NCBI GenBank assembly: GCA_017305535.1
Contig: JAFKKN010000005.1
Location: forward strand, 372,001 to 436,000
Origin: Hyphomicrobiales bacterium
GTDB taxonomy: Bacteria > Pseudomonadota > Alphaproteobacteria > Rhizobiales > Xanthobacteraceae
DNA: 64,000 bases
Direction of reading: 5' to 3'
Below the pieces are notes generated by a model that saw only the letters and a program-made list of their open reading frames with translations, was not told the DNA's origin and made no database searches. Every line of letters starts with the position of its first letter. Positions within the stretch are counted from its first letter, which is position 1. Positions 37,750 to 54,445 of this stretch are shown in pieces. The translations under genes and the position numbers were made by a program.

Positions 37750-37911
37750 TCGTGAGGTTTCACGCGGGTCGGAACGACGGTAACTCTTTGTTATACCGCA
37801 GTGCCGCAAATCGAGCACAATTGGTCTGCAAGACCTCCGCGACCCTTAAACCGATGCGAGTACCGGCGCGCTTATGACGACGCGACGGATGACGACGGGA
37901 TCTGTACGGCC

Positions 37912-38781
37912 ATGAAAATACGAAATTTTCGCGTATCGCGCCGGTCAGCCACCCTGCTTGCGGTCATGGTCGGAACCCTGTCCTTGGCGATCGGCGCCCA
38001 CGCCGCCCTGTACAAGCGCGCCGTCGATGCCACCAAGATCACCACGGCCGCTCCGGTCACCTCAAACGGCCCCGCCAAGGTCGCCCTGGTGATCGGCAAT
38101 AGTCTCTATCCCGACGCCAATGCCCCGCTGGCCCAACCGACCAACGATGCCCGCGCCTTGAGCGCGGCCTTGCAACGCGATGGTTTTGACGTCGAAACGG
38201 TTGAAAACGCCGATAAAAGCGAAATGCGCGGCGCCGTGGAGCGTCTCAAGGCAAAGATCCGGCCGGACTCGGTGGCGATGTTGTTCTTCGCCGGCTTCGG
38301 CGTGCAGGTCGGCCGTGAGAGTTACATGATGCCGGTCGATGCCGCGATCTGGAAAGCATCCGACGTTCGCCGCGACGGCACCAGTATCGAGTCGGTGCTG
38401 GCGGCGATGAAGCAGCGGGGCGCCCGCGCCAAGCTGGTGGTGGTCGATGCCTCGCGCCGCAATCCGTATGAGCGTCGCTTCCGGTCCTATTCCCATGGCC
38501 TGGCTCCGATCAACGCGCCGGATAACGCGCTGGTGCTGTCGTCGGCCGCGCCGGGGCAGGTGGTCGATGACGGCAACGGCGAAAACAGCCTTGTGGTCAC
38601 CGAATTGCTCAACAATCTGAAATCTCCCGCCGCCGACGCGGCAACGGTGTTCAACAAGACCCGGATGGCGGTGTCGCAGGCCTCTAGCGGCAAGCAGGTC
38701 CCGTCGGTATCGTCGTCGCTGCTCGACCAGGTGCATTTCGGCGACAAGACGCCGGCTAACTTCGCCAAGGCTGGAAGCTAG
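37912..38781 (+). CDS. Exported caspase-fold protein lacking the catalytic dyad
   Basis: A 289-residue protein with an N-terminal export or anchor segment (residues 12-32) and a peptidase C14 fold: ALVIGNSLYPDA near 58, LFFAGFG at 124-130 and VVVDASRRNPYE at 176-187. In active metacaspase-like enzymes the first motif ends in a histidine (AGHG) and the second carries a cysteine (DACR). Here they are F129 and S181, so proteolysis is not expected. The surrounding fold is well kept. A paralogue with the same replacements is at 51894-53405. The start is ATG 37912 with a weak ribosome site. Confidence 0.88.
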   Translation: MKIRNFRVSRRSATLLAVMVGTLSLAIGAHAALYKRAVDATKITTAAPVTSNGPAKVALVIGNSLYPDANAPLAQPTNDARALSAALQRDGFDVETVENADKSEMRGAVERLKAKIRPDSVAMLFFAGFGVQVGRESYMMPVDAAIWKASDVRRDGTSIESVLAAMKQRGARAKLVVVDASRRNPYERRFRSYSHGLAPINAPDNALVLSSAAPGQVVDDGNGENSLVVTELLNNLKSPAADAATVFNKTRMAVSQASSGKQVPSVSSSLLDQVHFGDKTPANFAKAGS

Positions 38782-38806
38782 AAGTACGATACATTCAAAT
38801 CCGATC

Positions 38807-38837
38807 CGTCATGTCCGGGACAAGCCCGGCCATGACG
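38807..38837. repeat. Interspersed palindromic repeat, family A, minimal copy
   Basis: A single hairpin unit, CGTCATGTCCGGG, ACAA, GCCCGGCCATGACG, equal to the end unit of the longer family A copies. It lies between the converging caspase-fold and adaptor genes. Confidence 0.85.
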
Positions 38838-38914
38838 ATGTTGGATTTCGAGCCATTTTTCTCTGAATTGCCTGCAAGACTGAGTTGGCAATCCATTCGT
38901 CGCGTGTGATGTCG

Positions 38915-39823
38915 CTATTTCTTCGTGGCATCGGCCATGATCGGCCGCACCGGATCGCCTTCGCGCAATAGCGCCCCGGCCCGTGCCACCACCGTCTCGC
39001 CTTCCGACAAGCCTTCGCGGATTTCGACGCGCCCGTTCGACATCAGGCCGACCTCGACGCGACGGGTTTCCACCCGGTCGCGCCGCACCACCTGCACCAC
39101 GGTGCCGGCGCTGCTGTAGAGGATCGCGGTCAGCGGCACCGACACGCCGCAGCTCTCGCCGGTCTTGATCGACGCCCGCCCCGCCGCATTGACCAGCAAT
39201 GACCGCTTGGACGTGACCGCGATGAAGGCCATGCCGAGCTGGCTGTTGGGGTCGACAGTCGCGCCGATCTGGCGAACCTTGCCTTCGAGGTCGTCGGTGC
39301 CGCTGATCCGGATGGTGGCGGGCTGGTCGACTTTGAGCTTGGCGAGGTCACGGGTCGGCACGCGCACCGCGAGATCGAATTCGTTGCCGGTGATGATGTT
39401 GAACAGTGCTTCGCCCTTGCCGGAGGCAATGGCGCCGACCACGGCGGTCGACGCGCTGACCAGTCCGGCCGCCGGTGCCTGAACGGTCAGAGGACCGCCC
39501 TCGGGCTGGCTGAGCTTCGCCAGCGCTTGTCCGGCGGTAACGGTCTGCCCGATATCCACCGATACCTCCTGCACCTTCAGGCCGGGGCGGTCCGGCCGCA
39601 CGGCGATCTCCTCGCGCGGGATCAGGAGGCCGAACGCATCGACGATATCGGCAAAGCACGACTTCGCGGTGGTGAGAACCGTCACCGCGGCGGCGCTGCT
39701 CGGGACCTCGTTGGCGGCGTGAGCGGACAGCGGCAAAACGGACATCGCCACGGCTGCGAGCAACGCGCGGGCAGGACGTTTAACCCGTCGCGGAATCGGT
39801 AACGGTGCGGCAATGCGTTTCAT
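38915..39823 (-). CDS. RND-type periplasmic adaptor (membrane fusion) protein, no pump gene beside it
   Basis: A 302-residue exported adaptor with a signal peptide (residues 18-37), a lipoyl-like hairpin region (QAPAAGLVSASTAVVG) and beta-barrel domains. C56 (KSCFAD) and C225 (ESCGVSVP) are the only cysteines of the mature protein. They line up with C64 and C237 of the adaptor at 50088, and the C-terminal halves are clearly similar (ETRRVEVGL and ETRRVRTGL). No inner-membrane pump is encoded adjacent. It converges on the caspase-fold gene. ATG 39823 has GGAACC upstream. Confidence 0.85.
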   Translation of the reverse strand: MKRIAAPLPIPRRVKRPARALLAAVAMSVLPLSAHAANEVPSSAAAVTVLTTAKSCFADIVDAFGLLIPREEIAVRPDRPGLKVQEVSVDIGQTVTAGQALAKLSQPEGGPLTVQAPAAGLVSASTAVVGAIASGKGEALFNIITGNEFDLAVRVPTRDLAKLKVDQPATIRISGTDDLEGKVRQIGATVDPNSQLGMAFIAVTSKRSLLVNAAGRASIKTGESCGVSVPLTAILYSSAGTVVQVVRRDRVETRRVEVGLMSNGRVEIREGLSEGETVVARAGALLREGDPVRPIMADATKK

Positions 39824-39952
39824 CAAAAGGGTTCCGGCTGCAATGGACGTCGTCGTTGATCGGGGCAGACTATTGAAGCGGCACGCCAGCGCCAAGGGGT
39901 GACGTCAGACGTGCTCTGTCGCGAAATTAGTCGGTTGCCGGACGCGGCAAGT

Positions 39953-41896
39953 TCAGGAGGCCGGGCTTGATTGCTGAGCCGCCGTGTCGGCCCCGGATTG
40001 CGATCCGCGCCAGCGCAGGATTTCGACGACGGCAACCGGATGATGGAAACCCTTGAGGTTCAGCGGTTCGATCGGCCTGGCCTCGACGAGGGATTCCACC
40101 ATGCCGTAGGCGCGTTGGCTGACGATGATCTGCCCGGCCCTGGCTTCGTCGGACAGCCGTGACGCCAGATTGGTGACGCTGCCGATCGCCGCATATTCGA
40201 GCCGTTGCTCGAAGCCGATCTGTCCCAGCGTGGCATAGCCCACCGCGATGCCGACGCCGAAGCCGAGGTTGTGGCCGCGGTTGCGCCATTTGCGGGCCAG
40301 CACCTCGATGTTGTCGCGCATCTCGATCGCCATCCTGACCGCGCGCTCGGCGTGATCGGGAAACGGCAGCGGCGCGTTGAACAGGATCATCACGCCGTCG
40401 CCGGCGTAGCGGTCGAGCGTGCCCTCGTAGCGGAAGATCAGTTCGCCGAGCGCCGCGTGATATTCGCGCAGCACGTTCATGGCTTCTTCCGGCTCCGAGC
40501 TTTCGGTGAAGGCGGTGAAGCCGCGCAGATCGCAGAACACCACGGTCACCTCGCGGCGATGGCTGTTGAGCAGCGAATCGTGACCGTCGGATGAGGCGAT
40601 GAGCTGCGCCACTTGCGGCGCGAGAAAACGCTCCAGCCGGCGGATGCGCTCGATCTCGCCGAGCTGTTTCTCGACGCGTTCCTCCAGCGAGCGATTCCAG
40701 TGTTGCAACTGGTCGGTCTGCTCCTGCAACTTGTCGGCCTGACGTTGCACGGTGTCGCGCGCCGTCGCCAGTTCGTCGACCGATCGCGCCAGATCGCGCG
40801 TGCGCTCCGCGACCTTGGATTCCAGCCCCGCGTAGGTTTCCTGCAATTGGCCGGCCATGCTGTTGAACTGGTCGGCGAGTTCTTCCAGTTCGTCGGAGGT
40901 CTTGACCTCGATGCGGTGGCCGAAGTCGCCGGCGCCGAGCCGTCGCGCACCGGCACGCAGCGCGTTGATCGGTCCTACCATTCGCCGCGCCAGCAGGATG
41001 CCGGCGAGAGTGGCGACCGCAAGTCCAAGCGCGGCGAGCGCCGCGATACGCAACAACAGATCGCGCACCGGCGCCAGCGCCTGACTGGTCGGTTGTTCGA
41101 ACACCACGAACCAACCGAGCTTGGGAACGACATGCGCGGCGGTCAGGACGGAATGGCCATCCCGCGCGGTGCCGGCGTCGAGCGGCGTGCCATCAGGTTT
41201 CAACAGCGCCGCGACCTGCGGCAGCGCCGCCCAGTCCTGCCCGATCATGCGCGCCGTGCCGGAATGCGCCAACACCCGGCCGTTGGGATCGACGATGTAG
41301 GCGGTGGTATGTTTGCCCGCTTGTGCCGCATCGACGAAGTCACCGAGAAAACGCAGATCGATTTCGGCAACGGTCACGCCCGCGTCCTGCCCCGAATGCG
41401 CCACCGCGATCTCCATGAAGGGCTGGCCGTCGCGGAAGGTCGCCGGCGCGAACGTCGCGCCCTTGGCGACGCCTTGCGTGAACGCCAGATCGCGGGAGAA
41501 GTTGGCGCCGCTGTCGAGCGTCACCTTGGCGCGCGTCATGCGGAGCTGTTCGCGCCCCGCGCCGTCGAGCTTGAAAATCTGCCGCACCGAGGGTTGCTGA
41601 TTCAGCAACTGGGCGTAGTCGGCCTGCCGCTGTTCGATGGTTGCGACGCTGGCGCGGGTGACCCAGCTCACCTGTCGTTCGAGGTCCGACATCGATTGCG
41701 CGATGCGCCGCGCAGCCGCTTCCGCCTTGTCGCTCATCGTCGCGGTGAGGCTCGCGCGCGTCTCGCGATAGATCATCCAGGTTTCGAGCGCGGCGTTGAT
41801 CGCGAGCACGAACAGCACCAGGCCGACCAGCGAAACGACGTATTTGGCGAACAGGCCGCCACGTCGAAACCAGGCTTCGTTGCTGTCGTCGGCCAT
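39953..41896 (-). CDS. Membrane class III adenylate/guanylate cyclase with Cache-like sensor and HAMP
   Basis: A 647-residue signalling enzyme. Residues 18-40 are a membrane helix, 40-275 an extracytoplasmic Cache-like sensor, about 280-310 a second helix, then a HAMP (ARRMVGPINALRAGARRL) and a long coiled coil of about 100 residues. The cyclase domain follows with FCDLRGFTAF (first metal Asp), YAGDGVMILFN (second Asp) and GSVTNLASRL (transition-state Asn and Arg). It should make a cyclic nucleotide in response to a periplasmic signal. Chosen start ATG 41896. Confidence 0.92.
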   Translation of the reverse strand: MADDSNEAWFRRGGLFAKYVVSLVGLVLFVLAINAALETWMIYRETRASLTATMSDKAEAAARRIAQSMSDLERQVSWVTRASVATIEQRQADYAQLLNQQPSVRQIFKLDGAGREQLRMTRAKVTLDSGANFSRDLAFTQGVAKGATFAPATFRDGQPFMEIAVAHSGQDAGVTVAEIDLRFLGDFVDAAQAGKHTTAYIVDPNGRVLAHSGTARMIGQDWAALPQVAALLKPDGTPLDAGTARDGHSVLTAAHVVPKLGWFVVFEQPTSQALAPVRDLLLRIAALAALGLAVATLAGILLARRMVGPINALRAGARRLGAGDFGHRIEVKTSDELEELADQFNSMAGQLQETYAGLESKVAERTRDLARSVDELATARDTVQRQADKLQEQTDQLQHWNRSLEERVEKQLGEIERIRRLERFLAPQVAQLIASSDGHDSLLNSHRREVTVVFCDLRGFTAFTESSEPEEAMNVLREYHAALGELIFRYEGTLDRYAGDGVMILFNAPLPFPDHAERAVRMAIEMRDNIEVLARKWRNRGHNLGFGVGIAVGYATLGQIGFEQRLEYAAIGSVTNLASRLSDEARAGQIIVSQRAYGMVESLVEARPIEPLNLKGFHHPVAVVEILRWRGSQSGADTAAQQSSPAS

Positions 41897-42049
41897 CCGG
41901 ATGACATCCCTCGCACGAGGATCGTCGGAGTTTGGGCAAAGTCCGCCGCGTATCACCTTTTTGAAGAAGGACGGATTACCGGGTCAAGCCCCCAACACGG
42001 CCGCAACGTATTTTCGTCGCAACGCACGGGCGTCAATGCACAGGGCCCT

Positions 42050-43054
42050 TCAGGCGCAAAACCGCGTCCGGTAACGCGCCGGGCTGGTGTCGAAGCGGGC
42101 GCGGAAATGATGGCGCAGCGCATCCGCTGAACCGAAGCCCACGGCGGCCGCCACGTCTTCCACGGTCATGTCGGTGGTTTCCAGCAGGCTTCGCGCCCGT
42201 CCCACGCGCTCATGCAGAATCCATTCGCCGGGCGGCAGTCCGGTCGCCTCGCCAAAGCGTCGGATGAAGGTGCGCCGGCTCATCCGCGCCTTTGCCGCCA
42301 GCGCCTCGATCGTGAGATCGCGGTCGAGATGCGCGAGGATCCAGGCCAGAAGCCCGGCGAGCGGATCGCCCTCGCCCAGCACCGGGCTCGGGATGAATTG
42401 GGCCTGCCCGCCTTCCCGATGAGCGGGGACCACGAGGCGGCGGGCGACGTCGTTGGCGATCTTCGCTCCGAAATCCTTGCGCACGATATGAATGCACAGG
42501 TCGAGTCCCGCGGCGCGCCCGGCCGAACTCATGACGTCGCCGTGATCGACATAGAGGACGCGGGAATCGATGTTCAGCGCGGGATATCGACGCGCGAGTA
42601 CGTCGGCATGGGCCCAGTGGCACGCGACGCGGCGCCCGTCGAGCAATCCCGAGGCCGCCACCACGAAAACCCCGGCGCAGATCGACACGATGCGCGCGCC
42701 GCGCGCATGGGCGAGGCGAAGCTGCTTCAGCAGCGGCTCCGGCGGCGGCGCGTCGATGTCATGCCAGCCCGCCACGACGATCGTGCCGGCGCGCGCGAGA
42801 AACGGGAAGCCGGTGTCGGCGACGATCCGGACGCCGTTGCCCGCGGCGACAGGCTCGCCCGGCCGCTCAGTACAGACCGCAACGCGATACCAGTCGTCGC
42901 CCATGCTGGACAGGCCGAAGACCTCCAGCGCGATGCCGAGTTCGAAGGCGTTGACGCCGTCATAGGCCAGCAGTGCGACAGTTCTGTCGTCGGGGTGCGC
43001 GCGCTGGGTTTTGCTCGTGGCCGAAATTGGCATGATATCGACGATATCTGTCAT
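42050..43054 (-). CDS. GlxA-family AraC-type transcriptional regulator
   Basis: A 334-residue regulator. Residues about 25-200 are a DJ-1/PfpI-like domain (VALLAYDGVNAFELGIALEVFG; ARIVSICAGVFVVAASGLL with the nucleophile-elbow Cys). Residues about 230-330 are an AraC helix-turn-helix pair (LTIEALAAKARMSRRTFIRRF, then VEDVAAAVGFGSADALRHHF). It is divergent from an EamA exporter gene with 65 bases between, which is the usual layout for control of the neighbour. Starts at 43063 (GTG), 43054 or 43033 are all possible. Confidence 0.9.
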   Translation of the reverse strand: MTDIVDIMPISATSKTQRAHPDDRTVALLAYDGVNAFELGIALEVFGLSSMGDDWYRVAVCTERPGEPVAAGNGVRIVADTGFPFLARAGTIVVAGWHDIDAPPPEPLLKQLRLAHARGARIVSICAGVFVVAASGLLDGRRVACHWAHADVLARRYPALNIDSRVLYVDHGDVMSSAGRAAGLDLCIHIVRKDFGAKIANDVARRLVVPAHREGGQAQFIPSPVLGEGDPLAGLLAWILAHLDRDLTIEALAAKARMSRRTFIRRFGEATGLPPGEWILHERVGRARSLLETTDMTVEDVAAAVGFGSADALRHHFRARFDTSPARYRTRFCA

Positions 43055-43119
43055 TCGTGCCACTGGTCAAGAAGGGCGCGGTTCTGCTGTTCTTGCGGGC
43101 GAAATGACGTTCTTGCCCC

Positions 43120-44106
43120 ATGAAAGCGATGCCCCCGATGCCTGAACAGATCCGGACCGAAACCACGAAGGGAATTCTGGCCTGCCTCGTTGCGGCGACT
43201 TCGTTCGGCCTCATGTTTCCGGTGATGGCGAGCGCGCTGAAGCGCGTCGATCCCTTCACCTTCACCTCGCTGCGTTACCTCACGGCCGCGGTCGCCTCGC
43301 TCGTGGTGCTGCTGATGAAGGAAGGGCCGCAGGCATTGCGCGTGAGGGGCGAATCGATCGGCCGCGCGTGGCTTCTGGGGTCGCTCGGGTTCGCCGGCTT
43401 CGGCTTCCTCGTTTTTCTCGGCCAGCAACTGGCCGGGCGCGATGGCGCGCTGATGACCTCGATCATGGCGGCGACGCAGCCGCTGCTCGGTGTCCTGATC
43501 CTAGCGGTCGTCAATCGCGCCCTGCCGCCGCTTGCGACGCTGGGCTTCATCGTGCTGTCGTTCTGCGGTGTGATTCTGGTGGTGACGCGCGGCGACATCG
43601 GCGGATTTCTCAATGCGCCGCAAAACTATGCCGCAAACCTGCTGATTCTGCTCGGGATGACGTGCTGGATGATCTACACGTTCGGCGCGGCGCGGTTCGC
43701 GACGTGGTCGCCGCTGCGCTACACGACGCTGACGATGTGCCTCGGCCTGACGACGATTCTCGCGATCAACGCCGGGCTGTTTGCGGTGAATGCGATCACA
43801 GTGCCCTCGGTGGCCGACCTCATCTTCATCGTCCCGCATGTGCTCTACATGGGGCTGATCGCGGGCATGGTCGGCGTGCTGTGCTGGAACATCGGCAACA
43901 AGCTGCTCGCGCCGCTGAACGCTGCGCTATTTCTTAACATGGTGCCGCTGGTTGCCTTCGCCGTTTCGGCGCTGCTCGGCGTCTTGCCGACGCATATCCA
44001 GATCTTTGGCGCGTGCGTCACCATCGCGGCGTTGATCGGAAACAACCTCTATCCGAGGCTCGCTATGCGACGCACGCCGACCGTCAGCGGCCGAACAACT
44101 GCTTGA
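43120..44106 (+). CDS. EamA-family (DMT) exporter
   Basis: A 328-residue membrane protein with ten hydrophobic segments in two EamA halves (ATSFGLMFPVMASALKRVDP at residue 26; LGVLILAVVNR; NKLLAPLNAALFLNMVPL near 268). Members export amino acids or other metabolites. The substrate is unknown. Its 3' end overlaps the convergent AsmA gene by 23 bases. The divergent GlxA-type gene is its likely regulator. Confidence 0.9.
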   Translation: MKAMPPMPEQIRTETTKGILACLVAATSFGLMFPVMASALKRVDPFTFTSLRYLTAAVASLVVLLMKEGPQALRVRGESIGRAWLLGSLGFAGFGFLVFLGQQLAGRDGALMTSIMAATQPLLGVLILAVVNRALPPLATLGFIVLSFCGVILVVTRGDIGGFLNAPQNYAANLLILLGMTCWMIYTFGAARFATWSPLRYTTLTMCLGLTTILAINAGLFAVNAITVPSVADLIFIVPHVLYMGLIAGMVGVLCWNIGNKLLAPLNAALFLNMVPLVAFAVSALLGVLPTHIQIFGACVTIAALIGNNLYPRLAMRRTPTVSGRTTA

Positions 44107-45970
44107 GGATGCCGTCGATGGCGGAAGGCGCGTCGGTGCCGCCGGGCGCATCCGGCTTGTCGGGCGCGGGGGCCGCTTGCTGCGGAGGACTGCCCAGCCC
44201 TTGCTGGATCATTCCGCCCAGCGTCTCGCCGAGACTTTTGCCGGTCTTGTTGTTGGGGTCGGTGCCGAACAGGCCCTGACCCAGTTCGCGCAAGCGCGCA
44301 TAGGCCGCGTCCGGGTTGTCGAGGATGCCGGCCATGTCCGGATAGATCCGCGGCGCGGCCCATGGCCCCTGGATCATCACCGGAATGCCGAGGCCGACCG
44401 GATCGGCCGCGCTGCCCTGTCCCTCGAGCGACATCACCAGTTTCGGCTCGACACGCAACGCCAGCGCCTTGCCGCCAAGGTCGATGGTGCCGCCGCCACG
44501 CATCCGCACCAGCGGGCCTGTCAGCACGATGTCGCTGGTCTCGGCCTTGCCCCGCGCGATGCGGAACGAGGCGCTGAGCTGCGACAGGTCGGTGGCCTGC
44601 ACTTCGTCGCTCTGCCAGCCGTTCAGCGTGCCGGTGGTGAGCGAGCGGATCATCTGCGCGACATTGATGCCGCGGATTTTTCCGTCGCGAAAATCGAGGA
44701 AGGCGGTACCCTCGAGGTTGGACATCATGGCACGGGGATTGTCGCCGGACGACTGCACCGCGAACTTGGCTTGCAGCTTGCCTTTAAGCCGGTCGAAATC
44801 GGCAAGCCCCGACAACAACGGCAGCGCGCGGATGCCGGCGAGGTCGCCCTGCAGGGTGAGACGCGGCATTGGGGCGGATGCATCCAGCGTCAGCGCGCCG
44901 CTGGCGAAACCTTCATAGATACCAACGTTCTCGAACCTCGCCGCGAGGGTGCCGTGATTGAGCGTCGCGCCGAGCGCCAGCGGCGCGACGCGGAGATCGT
45001 CGTAAGCAAGGCGCGCGGCGGAGATGCGCACGTCGGCATCGACGTAATTCAGGCCGCGAAGATCGAACGGGACGTCGCTCCATGTCGCGGACGCTTGTGT
45101 CGCGGTTCGCGTCGGCTTTCCGAAGGCGAGGTCCTGAATGTCGAGGTCGAGCTTCACCAGCGGCTTGCCGGCGAGATCGACCGACGCCCAGCCGGTGAAT
45201 GGCTTGCCGCCCAGCGTGCCGGAGACGCCGTTGATGCGGACGACAGGGCCGGCGAGGCGAACGTCGGCCTTGGCGGTCAGACTGTCGCTCATCAGGCTCG
45301 GCGCCTCGAAGGTCAATTCCACCGGCAGGTTGCGGCGCGCTGCCGCATCGTTCGGCAGCTCCGCGCGGAGGTCGAGCTTGAGCGCGTGGTCGCCGCTTCG
45401 CGCGGTGGCGTTGATCGCGAGTTGCAGATCTGCGCCAATGGTGGCGGTGGCATTGATCGCCTCGACACGATCCTCGACCTTGTCGCGCGCGTTGGCGAAC
45501 ACCAGCGCGCCATCGGTGACGCTGACGCGATCGATTCGAACTTGCGTCGTGTCGGATGTGGGTGTGGTTGCGGTGTCGTTGCTTGCGGGCGCGGATTTCG
45601 ATGCCGTGCGTTCGCGCAGCAGTGGCAGGTAAGCGACCGGCTTTTCCAGCGCGAGGTCGGTAATGACGGGCTTGCCGGAGATCAGGTTCGCGAGCGGCAT
45701 TTCGACACGTGCTTGCACGATTTCGATCCGTTCGGCGTCGTCGGTACCGGCGCGCCGGTCCAGCGAGATATTGTTCAGCGTGACGTGGAACGTCGGCCAC
45801 AAGGCGATGCGGGTCTTGCCGTCGATTTCGATCCGATAGCCGGTCGCGCGTTCGATCCGCGCCTGGATTGCCGACGTCATCATACCGGACGGGATGCCGA
45901 CTGCGAGAACGATCGCGATGACGAGGATAATCGCCGCGATGGCGGCGCCGGCGAACTTGACAGTCTTCAT
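44084..45970 (-). CDS. AsmA-family envelope protein
   Basis: A 628-residue protein with an N-terminal membrane anchor (residues 8-28) and the AsmA-type N- and C-terminal regions (TGYRIEIDGKTRIALWPTFH; LTLDASAPMPRLTLQGDLAG; FLDFRDGKIRGINVAQMI). AsmA-like proteins are inner-membrane-anchored, periplasm-spanning proteins linked to outer-membrane lipid transport. Long beta-rich repeats fit that model. It ends inside the 3' end of the EamA gene on the other strand. The start is ATG 45970. Confidence 0.9.
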   Translation of the reverse strand: MKTVKFAGAAIAAIILVIAIVLAVGIPSGMMTSAIQARIERATGYRIEIDGKTRIALWPTFHVTLNNISLDRRAGTDDAERIEIVQARVEMPLANLISGKPVITDLALEKPVAYLPLLRERTASKSAPASNDTATTPTSDTTQVRIDRVSVTDGALVFANARDKVEDRVEAINATATIGADLQLAINATARSGDHALKLDLRAELPNDAAARRNLPVELTFEAPSLMSDSLTAKADVRLAGPVVRINGVSGTLGGKPFTGWASVDLAGKPLVKLDLDIQDLAFGKPTRTATQASATWSDVPFDLRGLNYVDADVRISAARLAYDDLRVAPLALGATLNHGTLAARFENVGIYEGFASGALTLDASAPMPRLTLQGDLAGIRALPLLSGLADFDRLKGKLQAKFAVQSSGDNPRAMMSNLEGTAFLDFRDGKIRGINVAQMIRSLTTGTLNGWQSDEVQATDLSQLSASFRIARGKAETSDIVLTGPLVRMRGGGTIDLGGKALALRVEPKLVMSLEGQGSAADPVGLGIPVMIQGPWAAPRIYPDMAGILDNPDAAYARLRELGQGLFGTDPNNKTGKSLGETLGGMIQQGLGSPPQQAAPAPDKPDAPGGTDAPSAIDGILKQLFGR

Positions 45971-46173
45971 ATGGAAATCCGGCCTCGTGAAATGATCGTC
46001 GGAACTTGAAATGTCGGTTCAGTTGGCTGCGGGGTTCAACGCGCCGGCGCGACGGGATGTCCCGCCAGTGTAGAAATAATGCAAAAGGGCTGCAAACTTG
46101 TGTGACCTGTGACACACTCTCAGAAACCGCAAGCGAAATAGCCGTCCAGGCATTTCATCGGGGCAGGGGAGCG

Positions 46174-46848
46174 ATGGGCAAGCAGGCTGAGTTCGCGGTC
46201 ATTCTCAAGATGAACCCGATGTTCGCCGAACTGGGCGCGGCGGAATTGCAGCGCATCTCCGGCCTTTGCCACACGCAACAGCTCGCGACCGGCGAGGTGC
46301 TGTTCCAGAAGGGCGACGATGGCAATGCGCTGTTCGGTGTGCGGCGCGGGCAGATTCGCATCGAGACCGGTGCATCCGACGGCGCGCGGCTGACGCTGAA
46401 TTTCCTCGGCCCCGGCGATCTGTTCGGCGAGGTTGCGGTGCTCGACGGCCAGAGCCGTACGGCGGACGCGACCGCGGGGGAGCCGACCGAGCTGTTCGTG
46501 CTGCGCCGCGAGGATTTTCTCGCGCATCTCGAGCGCGAGCCGAAGGTCGCGGTGAAGCTGATCGAGCTGCTGTGCCAGCGCATCCGCTGGATGAGCGAGC
46601 GCATGGAGGAGTCAGTGTTGCAGCCGCTGCCGGTGCGGCTGGCGCGGCGGCTCTGCGCGCTGGCGTCCGATTTCGGCGCCGAGGTGCACATTTCGCAGGA
46701 GCAACTCGGCGTGTTCGTCGGCGCGGCGCGCGAGAGCGTCAATCGTCAACTGCAGCAATGGCGCAAGGACGGCATCCTCGACCTGCAACGCGGCCGCGTG
46801 CTGCTGCTCAACATGACCAAGCTGTCGGCGGTGGCGCGGAACGATTAG
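46174..46848 (+). CDS. Crp/Fnr-family transcriptional regulator
   Basis: A 224-residue regulator with a cyclic-nucleotide-binding-like domain (LGPGDLFGEVAVLDGQSRTADA near residues 84-105, a good phosphate-binding cassette with Arg) and a C-terminal helix-turn-helix (ISQEQLGVFVGAARESVNRQLQQW). It lacks the Fnr cysteine set, so a cyclic nucleotide or other ligand is likely; the adenylate cyclase gene is 4 kb away. AGGGGAG upstream fixes ATG 46174. It is divergent from the AsmA gene. Confidence 0.92.
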   Translation: MGKQAEFAVILKMNPMFAELGAAELQRISGLCHTQQLATGEVLFQKGDDGNALFGVRRGQIRIETGASDGARLTLNFLGPGDLFGEVAVLDGQSRTADATAGEPTELFVLRREDFLAHLEREPKVAVKLIELLCQRIRWMSERMEESVLQPLPVRLARRLCALASDFGAEVHISQEQLGVFVGAARESVNRQLQQWRKDGILDLQRGRVLLLNMTKLSAVARND

Positions 46849-46861
46849 CAACAAAAACAGG

Positions 46862-46977
46862 CGTCATGCGCGGACTTGATCCGCGCATCCATCTTCTTCG
46901 AGAGAAGATGGATTGCCGGGCCTTCGCCGCGCCGTAGGGGCTTCGGCCCCGCAGGCGGGTCAAGCCCGGCAATGACA
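46862..46977. repeat. Interspersed palindromic repeat, family A, copy 5
   Basis: Begins CGTCATGCGCGGACTTGATC and ends GGGTCAAGCCCGGCAATGACA, with an internal GTAGGGGCTTCGGCCCCGC hairpin. It sits between the converging Crp/Fnr and RND pump genes, filling nearly all the gap. Confidence 0.8.
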
Positions 46978-46985
46978 CTCTTTGT

Positions 46986-49900
46986 TCACGTCGCCTTGTG
47001 CTCGACCGTCGGCGGCTCGTCGTCGTGTTCGCCGTTCGATGAAATCACCTTGCGGCCGAGCCGCACGAAGAACTTTCCGACGTCGTCCATCAAGAGGAAC
47101 ATTGCCGGCACGAAGATCAGCGACAGCAGGGTCGAGAAGATCAGGCCGCCGATCACCGCGAGCGCCATCGGCGAGCGGAATTCGCCGCCGGCGCCGAATG
47201 CCAGCGCGCTCGGCACCATGCCGGCCGCCATCGCGATGGTGGTCATCACGATGGGTCGGGCGCGCTTCTGCCCGGCATCGATGATGGCAGCGTCGCGCGC
47301 CATGCCGGCGCGGATCGATTCGATGGCGAATTCCACCAGCATGATGGCGTTCTTGGTGACGATGCCCATCAGCATCAGGATGCCGATCCACACCGGCGTC
47401 GTCAGTTGCTTGCCGGTCAATAGCAGCGCCATGATCGCGCCGCCGATTGAGAGCGGCAGTGAGAACAGGATGGTGATCGGTTGCAGGAAGGTGCCGAACA
47501 GCAGCACCAGCACCGCATAGACCATCATCAACCCGGCGCTGATCGCGGTGGCGAAGCCGGCCGAGAGTTCGTTGAGGCTCTCGGCATCGCCGGACTGGTT
47601 GACGCGAACGTTCTTCGGCAGGCTTTTCATCACCGGAAGTTCGTAGATGTCCTTCAGCGCGTCGCCGAGGGCGGCGGTGCCGACGAGATCGGCGGCCACC
47701 GTCGCCTGCCGTTCGCGGTCGTAGCGGCTGATGCTGGTCGGGCCCTGATCGAGCGTGACGTCGGCGACGACGGAGAGCGGCACGCCGCCGCGACCGCCGC
47801 CGATCGGCACCCGCAACTGCTCGAGCACGCGCAGGTCGCCGCGCGCGGTGTCTTCCAGTTGCACGCGGATCGGCACCTGACGGTCGCCGGCGTCGAATTT
47901 CGCGAGCGCCGGGCCGACGTCGCCGATGGTGGCGACGCGGATGGTTTCCGACAGGCTTTCGGTTGAGACGCCGAGTCGCGCGGCGAGATCGGCGCGCGGC
48001 TGGATGCGCAGTTCGGGGCGATCCAGCGCGGTTTCCGAGATCACGTTGGCGATCAGCGGAATCCGCTTCATCTGGTTGGCGAGTTCGCTCGCGACATTGG
48101 CGACGATGTTGCTGTCGCTGCCGGTGACCACCAGCGAGATGGCGCGCAGGCCGTTTTCGTCGAGGAACCAGTAGCGGATGTCGGGAACGCTCTCCAGTTC
48201 CTTGCCGATCGCGAGTTCAAGCTCGCGCTGGGTGATCTTGCGGTCGCCCTTCGGCGTGTAGTTGATGATCAGCGCGGCGCGGCGGACTTCGTAGGTGCCG
48301 GGCGGAACATGGCCGCCGTCGACGAACACGCTCTTGACCTCCGGTCGCTTGCGCAGCCGCGCCACGATGTCCTCGGTCACCTTCTCGGTGTAGGCGAGCT
48401 GCGAACCCGGCGGCAATTCCATCGCCAGCAGCGAGCGCGCGGTATCCTGCGCCGGCAGGAAACCCTGCGGCAGCAGATGGATGCTCCAGATCGAGGCGGC
48501 GAACACCGCGAAACCGAAGATCACGGTGAGGATGTAGTGCTTCACCGACCACGTCACCAGCCGCGTATAGCTGCGTAGCACGCGGCCCGGTGGCGGGTCG
48601 TCATGGTCGTGGTGCTTGAGGAAATAGGCCGCAAGCACCGGCGTCACGAAACGCGCGGCGAGCAGCGAGAAGAACACCTGCACCGACACCGTGATGCCGA
48701 ACTGTTTGAAGAACTGCCCGGCGATGCCGGACATGAAACTAGCGGGTGCGAAGATCGCGATGATGGTGAGGCTGATGGCGATCACCGCGAGGCCGATTTC
48801 GTCGGCGGCTTCCAGCGCCGCGCGATAGGGCGATTTGCCCATCCGCATGTGGCGCACGATGTTCTCGATTTCAACGATCGCGTCGTCGACCAGAATGCCG
48901 GTGGACAGCGTGATGGCGAGGAAGGAGACGAGGTTCAGCGAGAACCCCAGCATGTCCATCGCCCAGAACGCCGGGAAGATTGACAGCGGTAGCGAGATCG
49001 CCGCGATGATAGTGGCGCGGATATCGCGCAGGAACAGGAACACCACGATCACCGCGAGGATCGCGCCCTCGAACAGGGTCGAGATCGCAGCCTCGTAGTT
49101 GCCCTTGGTGAAATCGACCGACGTATCGATCAGCTTGAGATCGACGTCGGGATACGCCGCCTTCAGCGCCTCGATGCGCTTCTCCACGGCGGCGGCGACC
49201 ACCACGTCGCTGGCGCCTTTCGAGCGTTTGATGCCGAGCGCCACCACCGGCTCGCCGTTGAAGCGGGCGAAGGTGCGGCGGTCGGCGATGGTGTCGGTGA
49301 CGGTGCCGAGGTCGTCGAGGCGCAGTTCGCCGCCGGCGGGCAGGCTGATCATGGTGCCGGCGAGATCCTGCAAGGTCTTCGCGCCGGCCAGCGTCCGGAT
49401 CGCCTGATCGTTCTTGCCGATTTCGGCGCGGCCGCCGGCGAGATCGACATTGGTGCCGCGCAGCCTTCGGCTGACGTCGAGAGCAGTGAGGCCCGCCGCC
49501 TGCAGGCGGTCGGGATCGAGCGACACGAGAATCTCGCGCTCGACGCCGCCGATGCGCTCGACCTGCGCCACGCCGCGCACGCCCTGCAGCGCGCGTTTCA
49601 CCACGTCGTCGACGAAATACGACAGTTGTTCCGGCGTCTTGCCGGGCGAGATCGCGGCATAAGTGACGATCGGCAGGCCGATGACGTCGACGCGCTGGAT
49701 CAGCGGTTCGTTGACGTTCTGCGGCAGGTTGGCGCGCACCCGCGTCACCGCGTCCTTGATGTCGTTGAGTGCGCGGTCGGTGTTGGTTTCCAGCGCGAAC
49801 TGGATGGTGGTCACCGACAGCCCGTCGGTGATCGACGACGTGATGTGGCGCACGCCCTCGACGCCGGAGACGCCGTCCTCGATGGTCTTGGTGACCTGCG

Positions 49901-50087
49901 CTTCCAGTTCGGCGGGGGCTGCGCCGAATTGCGACACCGCGACCGAGATCACCGGAATGTCGGCGGCCGGCAGCCGCGTCACCGCGAGTTTGGTGAAACT
50001 GATCCAGCCCAGCGCCAGCAGGATGATGGAGAACACCACCGACGGCAGCGGATGGCGAATCGACCAGGCCGAGATATTCAAGGACAT
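46986..50087 (-). CDS. RND-family efflux pump (HAE1 type)
   Basis: A 1033-residue inner-membrane proton antiporter. It has the twelve-helix RND layout with two large periplasmic loops. The charged helix-4 motif GILVDDAIVEIENIVRHM near residue 396 supplies the proton-relay aspartates. The gene begins directly after the stop of the adaptor gene (50088), with no gap, so they are translated together. An outer-membrane channel gene is not adjacent; the OmpA proteins nearby are not TolC-like. Substrates cannot be inferred. Confidence 0.95.
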   Translation of the reverse strand: MSLNISAWSIRHPLPSVVFSIILLALGWISFTKLAVTRLPAADIPVISVAVSQFGAAPAELEAQVTKTIEDGVSGVEGVRHITSSITDGLSVTTIQFALETNTDRALNDIKDAVTRVRANLPQNVNEPLIQRVDVIGLPIVTYAAISPGKTPEQLSYFVDDVVKRALQGVRGVAQVERIGGVEREILVSLDPDRLQAAGLTALDVSRRLRGTNVDLAGGRAEIGKNDQAIRTLAGAKTLQDLAGTMISLPAGGELRLDDLGTVTDTIADRRTFARFNGEPVVALGIKRSKGASDVVVAAAVEKRIEALKAAYPDVDLKLIDTSVDFTKGNYEAAISTLFEGAILAVIVVFLFLRDIRATIIAAISLPLSIFPAFWAMDMLGFSLNLVSFLAITLSTGILVDDAIVEIENIVRHMRMGKSPYRAALEAADEIGLAVIAISLTIIAIFAPASFMSGIAGQFFKQFGITVSVQVFFSLLAARFVTPVLAAYFLKHHDHDDPPPGRVLRSYTRLVTWSVKHYILTVIFGFAVFAASIWSIHLLPQGFLPAQDTARSLLAMELPPGSQLAYTEKVTEDIVARLRKRPEVKSVFVDGGHVPPGTYEVRRAALIINYTPKGDRKITQRELELAIGKELESVPDIRYWFLDENGLRAISLVVTGSDSNIVANVASELANQMKRIPLIANVISETALDRPELRIQPRADLAARLGVSTESLSETIRVATIGDVGPALAKFDAGDRQVPIRVQLEDTARGDLRVLEQLRVPIGGGRGGVPLSVVADVTLDQGPTSISRYDRERQATVAADLVGTAALGDALKDIYELPVMKSLPKNVRVNQSGDAESLNELSAGFATAISAGLMMVYAVLVLLFGTFLQPITILFSLPLSIGGAIMALLLTGKQLTTPVWIGILMLMGIVTKNAIMLVEFAIESIRAGMARDAAIIDAGQKRARPIVMTTIAMAAGMVPSALAFGAGGEFRSPMALAVIGGLIFSTLLSLIFVPAMFLLMDDVGKFFVRLGRKVISSNGEHDDEPPTVEHKAT

Positions 50088-51032
50088 TTAGCGGCCTCGC
50101 AGGCGATCGGGGTCGTCGTTGAAGATGGGTTTGACGCGGTCGCCGTCATGCAGCGAGGTACCGGCGTCGGCAACCACGATCTCGTCGGTCTTGAGGCCTT
50201 CGAGAATTTCGACGCTGGTGTCGGAGTTCAGGCCGGTTCGCACGCGTCGTGTCTCGATGACGTCGCCGGCTACGACCTGGATCGTCGAATGGTCCACTGC
50301 CGAGCGCGGGATCGAGACGCCGCAGCTTCGCTTGGCATCGATGTTGACGCGCGCGAACAGGCCGACCCGCAGCGGTGCGTTGCCGGTCAATGCCACCCGG
50401 ACATGGCCGAGCTGGGTGCGCTGGTCGATCTGCGGATCGATCCGGCGGATGCGGCCGGCGAGATCGGGCTGGCCGTCGCGGCTGATACGGGCGGTGGCGC
50501 CGATGCTCAGCTTCGGCATGTGGAGGCCCGGTACTTCGACATCGAATTCGAGGACGTTGTCGATCGCCATGCGGAACATTGGTTCGGCCTGCGGCGAGGC
50601 CGGCGCGCCGACCATGGTATGGACCTTGGTGATCAGCCCGGCGGCCGGTGCCTTCAAGACGATGGGATTGCGCGAATTGCCGGCCGGCGGCGGCGTCAGC
50701 TTCGCGAGATCCTGGTTGATGGTGACGACGTCGCCTTCATGCACGAGAAGATCGGTGACCTTCGAGCCCTCGGTGTCCACATTCACCACCGCCTCCTGTT
50801 TCGGCACCACGAAGCCGGTGACCCGGATCATGTCGGAGAAGCAGGCGTGCCTGGCCTTCACCACGCTGACGGTGACGCCATTGTTGTTCGTTCCTTCGGC
50901 CGCATGGAGCGGCGAGATCGTGGCGCCGCCGAGCAGCGCGGCGATCGCGAATGCGCGGAGCAGGATCGCGGGCCGTCGTGGCGCTGCGGTCATCTCGGGC
51001 GCCGCGGGCGGCTGACGGTTGGGCTCGATCAT
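50088..51032 (-). CDS. RND-type periplasmic adaptor of the pump at 46986
   Basis: A 314-residue membrane fusion protein with a signal segment (residues 20-45), a lipoyl-like region (KAPAAGLITKVHTMVGAP) and beta-barrel domain. It links the pump to an outer-membrane component. It has only two cysteines in the mature part, C64 and C237, in positions matching those of the adaptor at 38915. Low spacing to the pump (stop-to-start contact) indicates a dedicated pair. AGGCGA precedes ATG 51032. Confidence 0.9.
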   Translation of the reverse strand: MIEPNRQPPAAPEMTAAPRRPAILLRAFAIAALLGGATISPLHAAEGTNNNGVTVSVVKARHACFSDMIRVTGFVVPKQEAVVNVDTEGSKVTDLLVHEGDVVTINQDLAKLTPPPAGNSRNPIVLKAPAAGLITKVHTMVGAPASPQAEPMFRMAIDNVLEFDVEVPGLHMPKLSIGATARISRDGQPDLAGRIRRIDPQIDQRTQLGHVRVALTGNAPLRVGLFARVNIDAKRSCGVSIPRSAVDHSTIQVVAGDVIETRRVRTGLNSDTSVEILEGLKTDEIVVADAGTSLHDGDRVKPIFNDDPDRLRGR

Positions 51033-51097
51033 GAACGGCGTCGCCTGTCGATAGGATGAATTCGCGAGGGTGATGCAGGGCGTTCGGCGCGACGATA

Positions 51098-51748
51098 TTA
51101 CTTCGCCGCCGTCTTGTTCTGCATGTTGACGACCTGCACGCGTCGATTGGCGGCGTCCAGCGGCGCGTCCGGCTTTTTCAACCGGGTTTCGCCGTAGCCG
51201 ACGGTGACGAGATCGGTGCCGGCGATGCCGAACTTCTCGACCAGATAGTGCTTGACCGCGTCGGCGCGGCGTTCGGACAGGGTCTGGTTATAGGCGTCGC
51301 TGCCGGCGGCGTCGGTGTAGCCCGCGAGCAGGAAGGTCGAGCCCTTGAGATCGGGGTTGGTGAGGGCGCGTCCCAGCGCCTCGACCGCCGACTTGGCCTG
51401 TGCGCCGATGGTCGCGGAGTTGTAGTCGAAGTTGATTTCGAGATCGATGCTTGGCCGTTGATCGGCGATGGTGGCGATCTGCTGGCGTTCGCCGGAGGAG
51501 AGCGAGCGCGTGGCGCGGTTGCGCACCGTATCGATGAACCGGGTGTCCGCGGGGTTCGTTGTGGCTTCCGGCGGTGGCGTCATCGACAGGCTGCGCGTCA
51601 ACGGCTTCTTCGGCGTCAGCGCTTGCAGGATCTGCCCCTCGGTGGCTTCGCCGGCGAGCGCCGCGCCGCCGCTCGTCGCGATCAATACACCAACGGTCAG
51701 GATCGAACGGAGTGCGCCGCGGCCCCGTCGGTCTGATGCGATTGCCAT
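51098..51748 (-). CDS. OmpA-family exported protein (first of two)
   Basis: A 216-residue protein with a signal segment (residues 10-34) and an OmpA peptidoglycan-binding domain in the C-terminal 120 residues (DLEINFDYNSATIGAQAKSAV; LAGYTDAAGSDAYNQTLSERRADAV). An N-terminal part repeats the SLS motif (LTRSLSM, ATRSLSS). The sister protein at 53620 has the same repeats and similar spacing. The start ATG 51748 has GGAGGG eight bases upstream. It lies 66 bases upstream of the adaptor gene. Confidence 0.92.
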   Translation of the reverse strand: MAIASDRRGRGALRSILTVGVLIATSGGAALAGEATEGQILQALTPKKPLTRSLSMTPPPEATTNPADTRFIDTVRNRATRSLSSGERQQIATIADQRPSIDLEINFDYNSATIGAQAKSAVEALGRALTNPDLKGSTFLLAGYTDAAGSDAYNQTLSERRADAVKHYLVEKFGIAGTDLVTVGYGETRLKKPDAPLDAANRRVQVVNMQNKTAAK

Positions 51749-51893
51749 GATCAAATCCCTCCGCTGCAAGAATCGACGTTGGTTGGCCCAACGATGGAAA
51801 CAGGTATTCGGGCAAAGGCGCTGCGCGCCGGCCCCGATTATGAAATCCGCTGCGGAACGCTCGACAGCACGGCCGCGTTCCGCGATATCAAAC

Positions 51894-53405
51894 TCAGTTC
51901 ACGCCGTAGCCGTCGAACTCCTTGACGATGTTCGGGTCCATCGCCTTGGCGTTGGTGATGTCGAGTTCGCCGGCCGCCGCCGCGCCGCTGCGCTGCTTCG
52001 CGAGGCCCCGGCCGTAGAGCGACGACGTCAGCCGCGGATTGACCTTGAGCGCGGCGTCGAAGTCGGTGATGGCGTCCTTGGTCTTTCCGCTCTTGAGGTA
52101 GAGCAGGCCACGGCTGTCGAGTGCATCGACGAAGCCGGGCCGCAACCGCAGCGCCTCGTTGCAGTCCTTGAGGGCGTTCGACAGGTCGCCGGTCACCGTA
52201 CGTGTCCAGCAGCGATTGTTGAGGGCCTCGACGTCCTTCGGATTGAGTTTCAGCGTCTCGTCGAAATCCTTGATGGCCGCGCTGTAGGCGCCCTTGCTGG
52301 CATAGACCTGGCCACGCCGGTAGAGCGAATTGACGTCCTTCGGGTTGGCGGCGATCTTGGCATTCAGCGCCACCACCGTCGGCTCGTGCGCCAGCGACGC
52401 GACGCTGGTTTCGGGTTTCGTGGCCTGCACCGGCGCAGCCGTCCCGACCGGTTTGGTTTCGGCGGGCTTGGTTTCGGCAGACTTGGTTTCGGCGGGCTTC
52501 GTCTCGACGGACTTTTCGGGTTCGGGTTTCGTCACGACGACCGGCTTGGCGGGCACGGTGACGTTGAGTGGCGGGTCGGCATCGGGCGGGACCGGCGGCA
52601 CAGGCTTGGGATCGGCCTTCTTCGGCTCGAGCTTGGCGACCTTGGCGCCGGCGACGAACGCGAAGTCTTCCGCCAGCGACGACGAAATCCACGGCACCTG
52701 CTCGCTGCGCGAGGCGCGTGTGACGCCGACGCGGGTGCGGTTCAGGGTTTCCTCGGCGGTGAGATCGGGAACGCGAATTTCCTTCAACAATTCGCCGACG
52801 AACAGGCTGCGTTCCGCGCCGGAATCGCTGACCACGGAACTCAACGCCGCCGAATACATCACCAGCGTGCCGCTCGGCGCGATCACCGGCGCAAGGCCTG
52901 CCGAGAAACTGCGGAAGCGGCGCTCGAACGGATTGCGGCGCGAAGCGTCGAGCAGCGCGATCTTGACGCCGGCGCCGCGGCTGTTGAGTTCGCCGAGAAT
53001 GGTTTCGAGGCTGAAGCCGTCGCGGCGGACGTCCGCCTCGGTCCAGATTTGCGCGTCGACCGGCAGGATGTAGCTCTGCCGCGCCGACTGGATGCCGAAA
53101 CCGCTGAAGAAGATCAGCGCTGCCGAGCCCGGCTTGATGCGGCCGTAGAATTTGTCGAGAGCGCGACGCATGGCATCGCCGCCGAGATTCTCGCCGACCT
53201 CGACCTCGAAGCCGTCGCGCTTCAACTCGTCGGCGACGTCGCGGGCGTCGTTGAGCGGTTCTTTCAGCGGTGTTTCGTTGTCGGGGTATTTGGCGTTGCC
53301 GATGACGAGAGCGACACGCTCGCCGGCGGCATGAGCCGCGACCACCGGAAACAGCGGCACTGCCAGCATCGACAGGGCGGCAAGCAGGGCAATACGCAAT
53401 CTCAT
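51894..53405 (-). CDS. Exported caspase-fold protein without catalytic dyad, fused to TPR repeats
   Basis: A 503-residue protein: signal peptide (1-27), caspase-like C14 fold (28-250), a Pro/Lys/Thr-rich linker (255-345) with AETKP repeats, then three to four TPR units (about 345-480). F103 sits where the catalytic His should be (SGFG for AGHG) and S155 where the Cys should be (DASRRNPFERRF). The 37912 protein has the same changes. The TPR part suggests a protein-contact role. Start ATG 53405 is chosen because the signal peptide begins there; a longer frame to 53486 exists. It is flanked by OmpA genes. Confidence 0.9.
   Translation of the reverse strand: MRLRIALLAALSMLAVPLFPVVAAHAAGERVALVIGNAKYPDNETPLKEPLNDARDVADELKRDGFEVEVGENLGGDAMRRALDKFYGRIKPGSAALIFFSGFGIQSARQSYILPVDAQIWTEADVRRDGFSLETILGELNSRGAGVKIALLDASRRNPFERRFRSFSAGLAPVIAPSGTLVMYSAALSSVVSDSGAERSLFVGELLKEIRVPDLTAEETLNRTRVGVTRASRSEQVPWISSSLAEDFAFVAGAKVAKLEPKKADPKPVPPVPPDADPPLNVTVPAKPVVVTKPEPEKSVETKPAETKSAETKPAETKPVGTAAPVQATKPETSVASLAHEPTVVALNAKIAANPKDVNSLYRRGQVYASKGAYSAAIKDFDETLKLNPKDVEALNNRCWTRTVTGDLSNALKDCNEALRLRPGFVDALDSRGLLYLKSGKTKDAITDFDAALKVNPRLTSSLYGRGLAKQRSGAAAAGELDITNAKAMDPNIVKEFDGYGVN
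52455..52514. repeat. Four 15-base tandem units in the caspase-TPR linker
   Basis: Four consecutive 15-base units (GGTTTCGGCGGGCTT and variants), the fourth most diverged, encode the repeated pentapeptide AETKP/S on the minus strand, in the linker at residues 300-320. Confidence 0.85.
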
Positions 53406-53619
53406 GAGGCAACGGTCCGGGGAAATATGACAAATTGAATTCAGCAACATATCCACGACCGTACCCCACGCTCCCCGCATTTTCAAATAGGCCCCTTGTT
53501 GTGGAGGCCTTTCATCGTCCGCGCTGTGGCAATCGACCGCAGCGCGGCAACCGGTGCAGGATTTTCAAAACGCGGGCGGCAAGAGGCAGACGGCCACTTG
53601 TTCCGGTTACTTGTTCCGG

Positions 53620-54255
53620 TTACTTGGCCGCGTGCTCCTTTTCGACCACGTTGACGATCTCGACGCGGCGATTTTCGGCGGCGTAAGGATCGGCGGTGTT
53701 CTTCAGGCCGTCTTTGCCGAAGCCGGAGGTCATCAGCAGGTCCGGCGAGATCTTGTAGTTGTCGACCAGGAAGCGCTTCACCGTCTCCGCGCGGCGCTCC
53801 GACAGTTTCTGATTGTAGTCGTCGGTGCCCTTCGCGTCGGTATGGCCGCCCAGCATCACCACCGAGCCCTGCAATTCCGTGCTGGTGAGCGCCTTGCCGA
53901 GGTTGTTGAGTTGCGGTTCGGCGCGCGGGGTCAATTCCGCCGAGTTGAAGTCAAAGTTGATCTCGACATCAACCTTCGGCCGCTTGGCCGCGATCTCCGC
54001 CATTTGCTGGCGATCACCGAGCGACAACGACCGGCTCTGGCCGCGCACGCGCTGGATAAACGCGGTGTCGGCGTCGCTGAGGCTGCTGCGCGTCGATGCG
54101 CTCAGACTGCGGGTCTTCGGCTTCAGGCCATCGATAATCTGTTGCGCCGAAAGCTCACCGGCCATGGCCGATTGCAGGGCGGGCGACACGACAAAGCCGC
54201 CAGCCAGGATTGCGAGGGCGAGGGAGGTGCCCAGATATTTCCGCCGGCTCATCAT
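53620..54255 (-). CDS. OmpA-family exported protein (second of two)
   Basis: A 211-residue protein with a signal segment, repeated TRSLS motifs (KTRSLSA, QSRSLSL) and an OmpA domain (VEINFDFNSAELTPRAEPQL; LGGHTDAKGTDDYNQKLSERRAETV). It is a paralogue of the protein at 51098. Three close ATGs start the frame; the third (54255) has GGAG at a normal 6-base spacing, while the first (54261) has it immediately adjacent. The 53406-53619 gap before it has no other gene. Confidence 0.9.
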   Translation of the reverse strand: MMSRRKYLGTSLALAILAGGFVVSPALQSAMAGELSAQQIIDGLKPKTRSLSASTRSSLSDADTAFIQRVRGQSRSLSLGDRQQMAEIAAKRPKVDVEINFDFNSAELTPRAEPQLNNLGKALTSTELQGSVVMLGGHTDAKGTDDYNQKLSERRAETVKRFLVDNYKISPDLLMTSGFGKDGLKNTADPYAAENRRVEIVNVVEKEHAAK

Positions 54256-54445
54256 CTTCATCTCCGTTCGATTGAGGTTGCGATGGTCGCCACTATGAGC
54301 CGCGCTCTCGTCGAGAAATGTGATGTGAATCACATAGCGAGGAAGTCTGTTCCGGAGCGCGGACCGCAAGACGGCTCGCCTGGATAGGACGCCGGCCGGA
54401 TCGGCAAGGTTCAAGGCGAGATGGTGCAGGGGGTTCCAGCGCCCT

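Follow-up and report, generated by a model that had tools for sequence, protein, structure and literature searches.

The window analysed here, a stretch of 64,000 nucleotides from the 4.7 Mb genome of a Hyphomicrobiales bacterium (C4:372001-436000 of genome G000), carries a gene cluster in which a permease of the resistance-nodulation-division (RND) type is found together with two RND adaptors (adap1 and adap2), two pseudo-caspases (casp1 and casp2) and two OmpA-domain proteins (Table 1). A first-pass annotation of this DNA had described two loci, each with a pseudo-caspase beside an RND adaptor of the same subfamily, the second locus adding a pump, tetratricopeptide repeats (TPRs) and two OmpA proteins. 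All these genes were confirmed: both caspases have a Phe-Ser dyad, the adaptors are 38% identical, and Pfam matches to ACR_tran, TPR and OmpA are present at the second locus, whose two OmpA proteins share 45% identity. The view that the pairing is repeated, as two separate instances, was overturned by synteny maps of stretches up to 20 kb around the loci of relatives. In the window, ompA1, casp2, ompA2, adap2 and the pump share a strand and are separated by 133, 124, 65 and 0 bp; in relatives the common order is an optional ompA1, casp2, ompA2, adap2 and pump, followed variably by the Crp, AsmA and cyclase genes and then by adap1, to which casp1 is convergent, the divergent 580-aa gene, SNase and LssY_C coming next. 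Two relatives have compact clusters (L042, L045), with adap1 directly behind the pump; in the window the two halves are 7 kb apart, and individual loci of relatives may miss one part or another. Since the relatives' synteny is that of a single cluster, two independent pseudo-caspase/adaptor occurrences are ruled out, and loci 1 and 2 together make up one conserved syntenic cluster, whose two halves are spread out in this genome.

Table 1. Genes of the cluster and syntenic genes, with positions in the window; counts out of 80 refer to loci of the named-genome set, the best 80 of 232
Feature	Position	Strand	Evidence
ompA1, OmpA-domain protein (peptidoglycan-binding type), first of the five-gene run	53620..54414	-	Pfam OmpA 8.4e-20; match in 11/80 named loci, not universal
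casp2, pseudo-caspase (Phe-Ser) with C-terminal TPRs	51894..53486	-	Peptidase_C14 1e-33, TPR; F130/S182 replace His/Cys
ompA2, second OmpA-domain protein	51098..51769	-	Pfam OmpA 2.5e-21; match in 69/80 named loci
adap2, predicted hairpin-less, two-cysteine RND adaptor	50088..51032	-	HlyD/RND_mfp models
RND permease with proton-relay motifs	46986..50087	-	ACR_tran 1e-227; VDDAI, KNAI, RPI.MT
Crp/Fnr-type regulator, syntenic	46006..46848	+	Pfam cNMP_binding, HTH_Crp_2; match in 50/80 named loci, some short-flanked
AsmA-family protein, syntenic	44084..45970	-	Pfam AsmA 6.1e-29; match in 45/80 named loci
dCache-HAMP-class III nucleotide cyclase, syntenic	39953..41956	-	Pfam Guanylate_cyc, HAMP, dCache_1; match in 31/80 named loci
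adap1, second predicted hairpin-less, two-cysteine RND adaptor, old paralogue of adap2	38915..39895	-	HlyD_3 5.8e-13
casp1, pseudo-caspase (Phe-Ser here), no TPRs	37801..38781, ATG at 37912	+	Peptidase_C14 2.5e-37
580-aa candidate class II terpene cyclase, encoded divergently from casp1	35551..37293	-	no Pfam/NCBIfam family
SNase-domain protein, syntenic with the 580-aa gene	34723..35457	-	Pfam SNase 1.4e-7; synteny maps
LssY_C protein, in some relatives kept in synteny with the 580-aa gene	33828..34613	-	Pfam LssY_C 2.7e-66; synteny maps

In both pseudo-caspases the catalytic His is replaced by Phe (AGFG, SGFG) and the catalytic Cys by Ser (DASRRNP); the two proteins are 46% identical, and Pfam finds three TPR stretches in casp2 and no TPR match in casp1. 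The dyads of relatives were read in the fetched loci, some of them overlapping, rather than across all 70 pseudo-caspases of the family sample described below: among casp2 relatives they are Phe-Ser (FS) in 53, Tyr-Ser (YS) in 36, Tyr-Ala (YA) in seven, and FA, VS and IS in one each, with nine unreadable, and among 32 casp1 rows YS in 25 and FS in seven. Of the 140 caspase rows 131 are thus readable, and His-Cys (HC) is found in none. Three of the unreadable casp2 rows (L045, L060, L075) give FS when the p20 domain is taken alone, three (L129, L153, L180) consist of TPR fragments with the p20 domain in a frame of its own, which reads YS, YS and FS, and the remaining L051, L179 and L185 are cut-off sequences. 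This loss of the dyad suggests that casp1 and casp2 are without proteolytic activity. The presumably dead p20 domain is under strong constraint, nearly as much as the pump, because the median identities to the window, in the 22 loci with all three genes, are 83% for casp2 p20 and 88% for the pump, adap2 having 58%. The genome G000 contains nine Peptidase_C14 matches; besides casp1 and casp2, six keep His-Cys and one, on contig C14, has Tyr-Ala. This third pseudo-caspase (L004:7907-10315, minus strand) has a long Pro-rich tail and no RND partner, and it adjoins rpsB/tsf/pyrH/dnaE-like genes, named by eye. Active-type (His-Cys) caspase genes stand beside casp2 in L058, L065, L101, L116, L120, L121 and L163. 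Neither casp1 nor the 580-aa protein had a match in PHROGs.

Ordinary RND adaptors reach TolC by a coiled-coil alpha-hairpin. As judged from alignment and predicted structure, adap1 and adap2 form a class that lacks the alpha-hairpin of the canonical AcrA/MexA/TriA adaptors: the lipoyl halves are separated by 11-15 residues (11 in adap1), versus 67-109 in 18 control adaptors, and the AlphaFold2 model of adap2 (mean predicted local distance difference test score, pLDDT, 83) consists of strands plus two short helices, with no long helix. Structural matches cover residues 51-306 of adap2, the best being BesA, and the modelled protein fits the BesA-like hairpin-less class, a class defined by structure. 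Each adaptor has exactly two cysteines downstream of a likely signal peptide; both are found in 28/28 adap1 rows and the pair is invariant in 46/46 adaptors; the two residues (C64 and C237 in adap2) may form a disulfide. Export of the cluster proteins is suggested by their N-terminal hydrophobic stretches, judged by eye. Adap1 scores above the TIGR01730 cut-off of 94.9 (105.8 bits) and adap2 just below it (92.3). Among PDB entries, the TriA-TriB fusion 6vej matches the adaptor profile best (2.9e-26); its chain has, in the profile alignment, extra residues between the lipoyl halves relative to the window adaptor. In a quick tree with SH-aLRT support, whose distant rows stand on long branches, adap1 and adap2 are two old paralogues beside a single pump; G000 has only two adaptor-class proteins at E 1e-40 or better, both in the window (1.8e-204, 4.5e-49), the next being at 9.5e-7. 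The pump is an HAE-1 type RND permease, with a full-length ACR_tran match and an Asp-Asp/Lys/Arg relay (VDDAI at 400, KNAIM at 912 and RPIVMTT at 944, by motif match and not full alignment; relay residues of AcrB as given in passages of PMC8277102), and its closest solved sequence is MdtB (1.4e-108).

The association of pseudo-caspase and adaptor was followed in samples of 119 genomes of the family, 249 of the order and 385 of the class. Family cut-offs were set by eye at gaps of the score lists, which retained 69/104 adaptor rows (to E 8.1e-40) and 70/94 caspase rows (to 1.4e-53); the discarded adaptor rows were mostly partial hairpin-type matches, plus broken pieces on G102 and G076. In the family sample the adaptor class is present in 35/119 genomes and the pseudo-caspase class in 37/119, and all 35 carry both. 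An adaptor lies within 5 kb of 45/70 pseudo-caspases and within 20 kb of 50/70; conversely, 45/69 adaptors have a pseudo-caspase within 5 kb and 58/69 within 20 kb. Uniform placement, with relatedness ignored, predicts about 0.3 of 70 within 5 kb, and the chance-level pairing that would have spoken against the first-pass annotation was not found. Such uniform-placement and binomial odds take no account of relatedness between genomes and exaggerate the significance, so that concordance within genera carries more weight. Pseudo-caspase and adaptor are jointly present or absent in six of the seven genera whose members were seen to vary: g1 (G093 has neither), g3 (G002), g9 (G008), g11 (G010), g29 (G089) and g128 (G232, G309); genus labels cover the listed genomes, 37 and 54 genomes with no match being unlisted, and further varying genera are possible. 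In the four genomes of genus g10 both genes are present, though they lie on separate contigs or at distances of 7-10 kb. Among the named-genome set, made up of Bradyrhizobium, Nitrobacter, Tardiphaga, Rhodopseudomonas and metagenome-assembled genomes and dominated by close relatives, casp2 is upstream of adap2, within 5 kb and on the same strand, in 77 of 80 loci; two of the three exceptions are at contig ends and one, L141, is genuine.

In the order sample, pseudo-caspase matches occur in ten genomes, and exactly these ten match the adaptor over its full length; 32 genomes match the adaptor in all, and in the remaining 22 the alignment begins only at about residue 121. Eight of the ten belong to the window's family. 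The other two, G287 and G331, are members of a different family and have casp2 about 2 kb from an adaptor, with ompA2 in between. The casp2 equivalent of G287 (L098:4265-7624) is a 1119-aa frame with a Phe-Ser caspase domain at residues 579-797, followed by TPRs. In the class sample the pseudo-caspase class is found only in G000 and G024, and the adaptor class in three of the 385 genomes, namely these two and a short contig of G683. The latter is an 8.5-kb contig (L198, G683:C245) that carries adap1, AsmA and Crp; its genome, of another order, has no caspase match, and the contig may be misbinned or transferred. Weaker caspase matches (40-45% identity) occur in eight genomes of other orders; of their 22 sites 14 were fetched, and all 14 show the His-Cys dyad, with no adaptor of the class near any of them. 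In G000 itself, the six active caspases and the Tyr-Ala pseudo-caspase are more than 20 kb from every ACR_tran/RND_mfp match. Pairing with an adaptor as a general trait of caspases is ruled out by these two sets. In a control of 17 hairpin-type adaptor stretches (L078-L094), 11 of them beside a pump 44-57% identical to that of the window, no caspase was found; L095 was excluded, as its stretch ended short of a pseudo-caspase on the same contig.

Some parts of this arrangement resemble known systems. TriA and TriB, the adaptors of the TriABC pump of Pseudomonas aeruginosa, possess hairpins, unlike adap1 and adap2, and we know of no caspase or OmpA partner of that pump. TriABC (PDB 6vej) likewise has two different adaptor genes per RND pump, as described in passages of PMC8277102. 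BesA of the BesABC system of Borrelia burgdorferi is a hairpin-less adaptor, as adap1 and adap2 are predicted to be (PDB 4kks/4kkt/4kku; PMC3807786, in part); besC, the channel gene, besA and besB form one operon there, whereas the window cluster lacks a nearby channel gene and has a second adaptor, pseudo-caspases and OmpA proteins. Alphaproteobacterial pseudo-orthocaspases with an FS dyad and C-terminal TPRs have been reported in Rhizobiales (PMC6426788, Front Plant Sci 2019, in the parts available), and casp2 fits them; in that type FS is consistently followed by TPRs, and casp1 has FS with no TPR, though its orthologues are mostly YS. The same parts of that paper count 561 inactive caspase homologues in Rhizobiales and link pseudo-orthocaspases to photosynthesis; the words "efflux", "OmpA" and "Bradyrhizobium" are absent from its main text. 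An OmpA domain, as beside casp2, is found in 14 metacaspase operons according to passages of a further survey (PLoS One 2012, PMC3501461), from which "Efflux" is absent and whose passages on operons include no RND pump or adaptors. Among the papers listed by searches of the open-access literature, to which subscription papers and preprints do not belong, no report of a caspase-RND pump link was found, which for the more loosely set searches is weak evidence of absence. Thus, FS/TPR pseudo-orthocaspases in Rhizobiales, OmpA genes in metacaspase operons and a hairpin-less adaptor were already known; new here are adaptors predicted to lack the TolC-gripping alpha-hairpin, with two invariant cysteines, that occur as two old paralogues at one pump. 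The undescribed envelope module suggested by the first-pass annotation stands in part: one conserved gene module is well supported, and no description of its RND link was found in that literature; a structural or sensing role for the caspase within the pump is a proposal.

The reading that we tentatively favour, at somewhat less than even chances, is that of one RND envelope transport module with paired hairpin-less adaptors, in which pseudo-caspase/TPR and OmpA proteins serve as a wall-anchored scaffold. The proton-driven pump would work with the two different short adaptors in a hetero-adaptor fashion; the pseudo-caspase would be a periplasmic protein-binding scaffold, its p20 fold docking on the pump or on the adaptor ring, and the casp2 TPRs would bind the OmpA proteins and so tether the assembly to peptidoglycan. 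In this way the scaffold might substitute for the absent link to the outer membrane or regulate it, a dedicated TolC partner being probably absent: no outer-membrane-factor match was found on the window's contig C4. Several observations weigh against such a module. Several outer-membrane factors are encoded elsewhere in G000, which makes the use of TolC possible. At locus L141 the pump and both adaptors occur but casp2 is missing, L067 has both adaptors with no pump within its 20 kb, and in the discordant genus g13 one genome (G081) has pseudo-caspases and no adaptor. No adaptor is within 20 kb of 20/70 pseudo-caspases, some of which are at contig breaks, and G024, G086 and G064 have an extra pseudo-caspase copy with no adaptor nearby. 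Finally, the complete genome G095 contains casp2 (Val-Ser) and ompA2 with no adaptor of the class or nearby pump.

The last finding also fits a shared regulon without contact, in which pseudo-caspase and OmpA proteins form a separate cell-wall unit, switched together with the pump by the same envelope signal through the linked cyclase and Crp-type regulator. The synteny of these two genes with the cluster in many relatives suggests that it is under cyclic-nucleotide control, and this synteny speaks for the regulon reading, as do the OmpA domains reported in metacaspase operons in general. We consider this explanation unlikely, if still a serious one, as the joint presence or absence of pseudo-caspase and adaptor in six of the seven varying genera and the conservation of casp2 p20, close to the level of the pump, argue against it.

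A different function for the cluster is raised by the 580-aa gene, which is the most faithful neighbour of casp1, more so than adap1: among 34 lower-identity (casp1-like) pseudo-caspases, 24 are within 3 kb of it, whereas an adaptor lies within 5 kb of 18. Five of the 20 pseudo-caspases with no adaptor within 20 kb are casp1-type genes (in G005, G050, G108, G028 and G067) that have been relocated along with it. The gene is no more than 3 kb from a pseudo-caspase in 28/32 genomes. Its product has a DxDTT motif (DCDTT), invariant in 12/12, which is catalytic in bacterial drimenol synthases (PMC9128629, in part), and a low-confidence model gives matches to class II terpene-cyclase-like folds; a PDB sequence search with its profile returned a single chance-level match (E 0.91). 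In a lipid-traffic machine, the 580-aa protein would make a cyclic isoprenoid, the pump and the AsmA-like protein, whose gene is within the cluster, would carry the product to the outer membrane, and the pseudo-caspases would be assembly factors; we regard this as improbable. About equally doubtful is the more specific form of the transport module in which an RND machine free of the TolC grip, with two disulfide-bearing hairpin-less adaptors and a peptidoglycan-anchored pseudo-caspase/TPR/OmpA scaffold in place of the usual channel bridge, would have as its cargo a cyclic isoprenoid from the linked DxDTT cyclase-like protein, the caspase fold being purely structural.

Inactive homologues may also restrain active ones, as c-FLIP restrains caspase-8. 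In the periplasm the pseudo-caspases might accordingly pair with active His-Cys caspases and restrain them, coupling the state of the pump to proteolysis. An active-type caspase gene is indeed present in 9/61 unnamed loci (eight places, since L099 and L100 overlap) and in 3/80 named ones, several directly upstream of casp2, and G000 has its six other His-Cys caspases; however, the large majority of loci, and the window itself, are without such a gene, and the conserved partners are the pump, the adaptor and the OmpA proteins, which leaves this role very unlikely. Most improbable is a neighbourhood that is merely inherited within one family and functionally meaningless, since, although most loci are from one family, genomes were unweighted by species tree and background synteny is high, the flanking MBL, MarR and FAD genes being syntenic too, the linkage persists in the second family, co-occurrence survives broken linkage in genus g10 and six of the seven varying genera are concordant.

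The role of inactive caspase homologues in Rhizobiales has so far been a matter of conjecture; two orthologous groups of them are now tied to one transport system, and the question of their role is therefore directly testable. These results suggest that in Bradyrhizobium, Nitrobacter and related soil bacteria dead proteases have been turned into parts or regulators of a transport system. They also add a proteobacterial family of paired, two-cysteine and predicted hairpin-less adaptors, which bears on the generality of the hairpin-TolC model for RND pumps.

Other genes of the region were not retained as parts of the cluster. An AraC/DJ-1 regulator and an EamA transporter are found inside it at 42050-44106 of the window; the other mapped loci give no EamA match and only two AraC matches (37-39%), and the two genes are probably an insertion in this lineage. 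The MBL, MarR, FAD and MBL2 genes beside casp2 are kept in many relatives and were treated as mere neighbours, because here the MarR, MBL and FAD-hydroxylase genes flanking the cluster adjoin those for homogentisate dioxygenase and fumarylacetoacetase (57961-61822 of the window).

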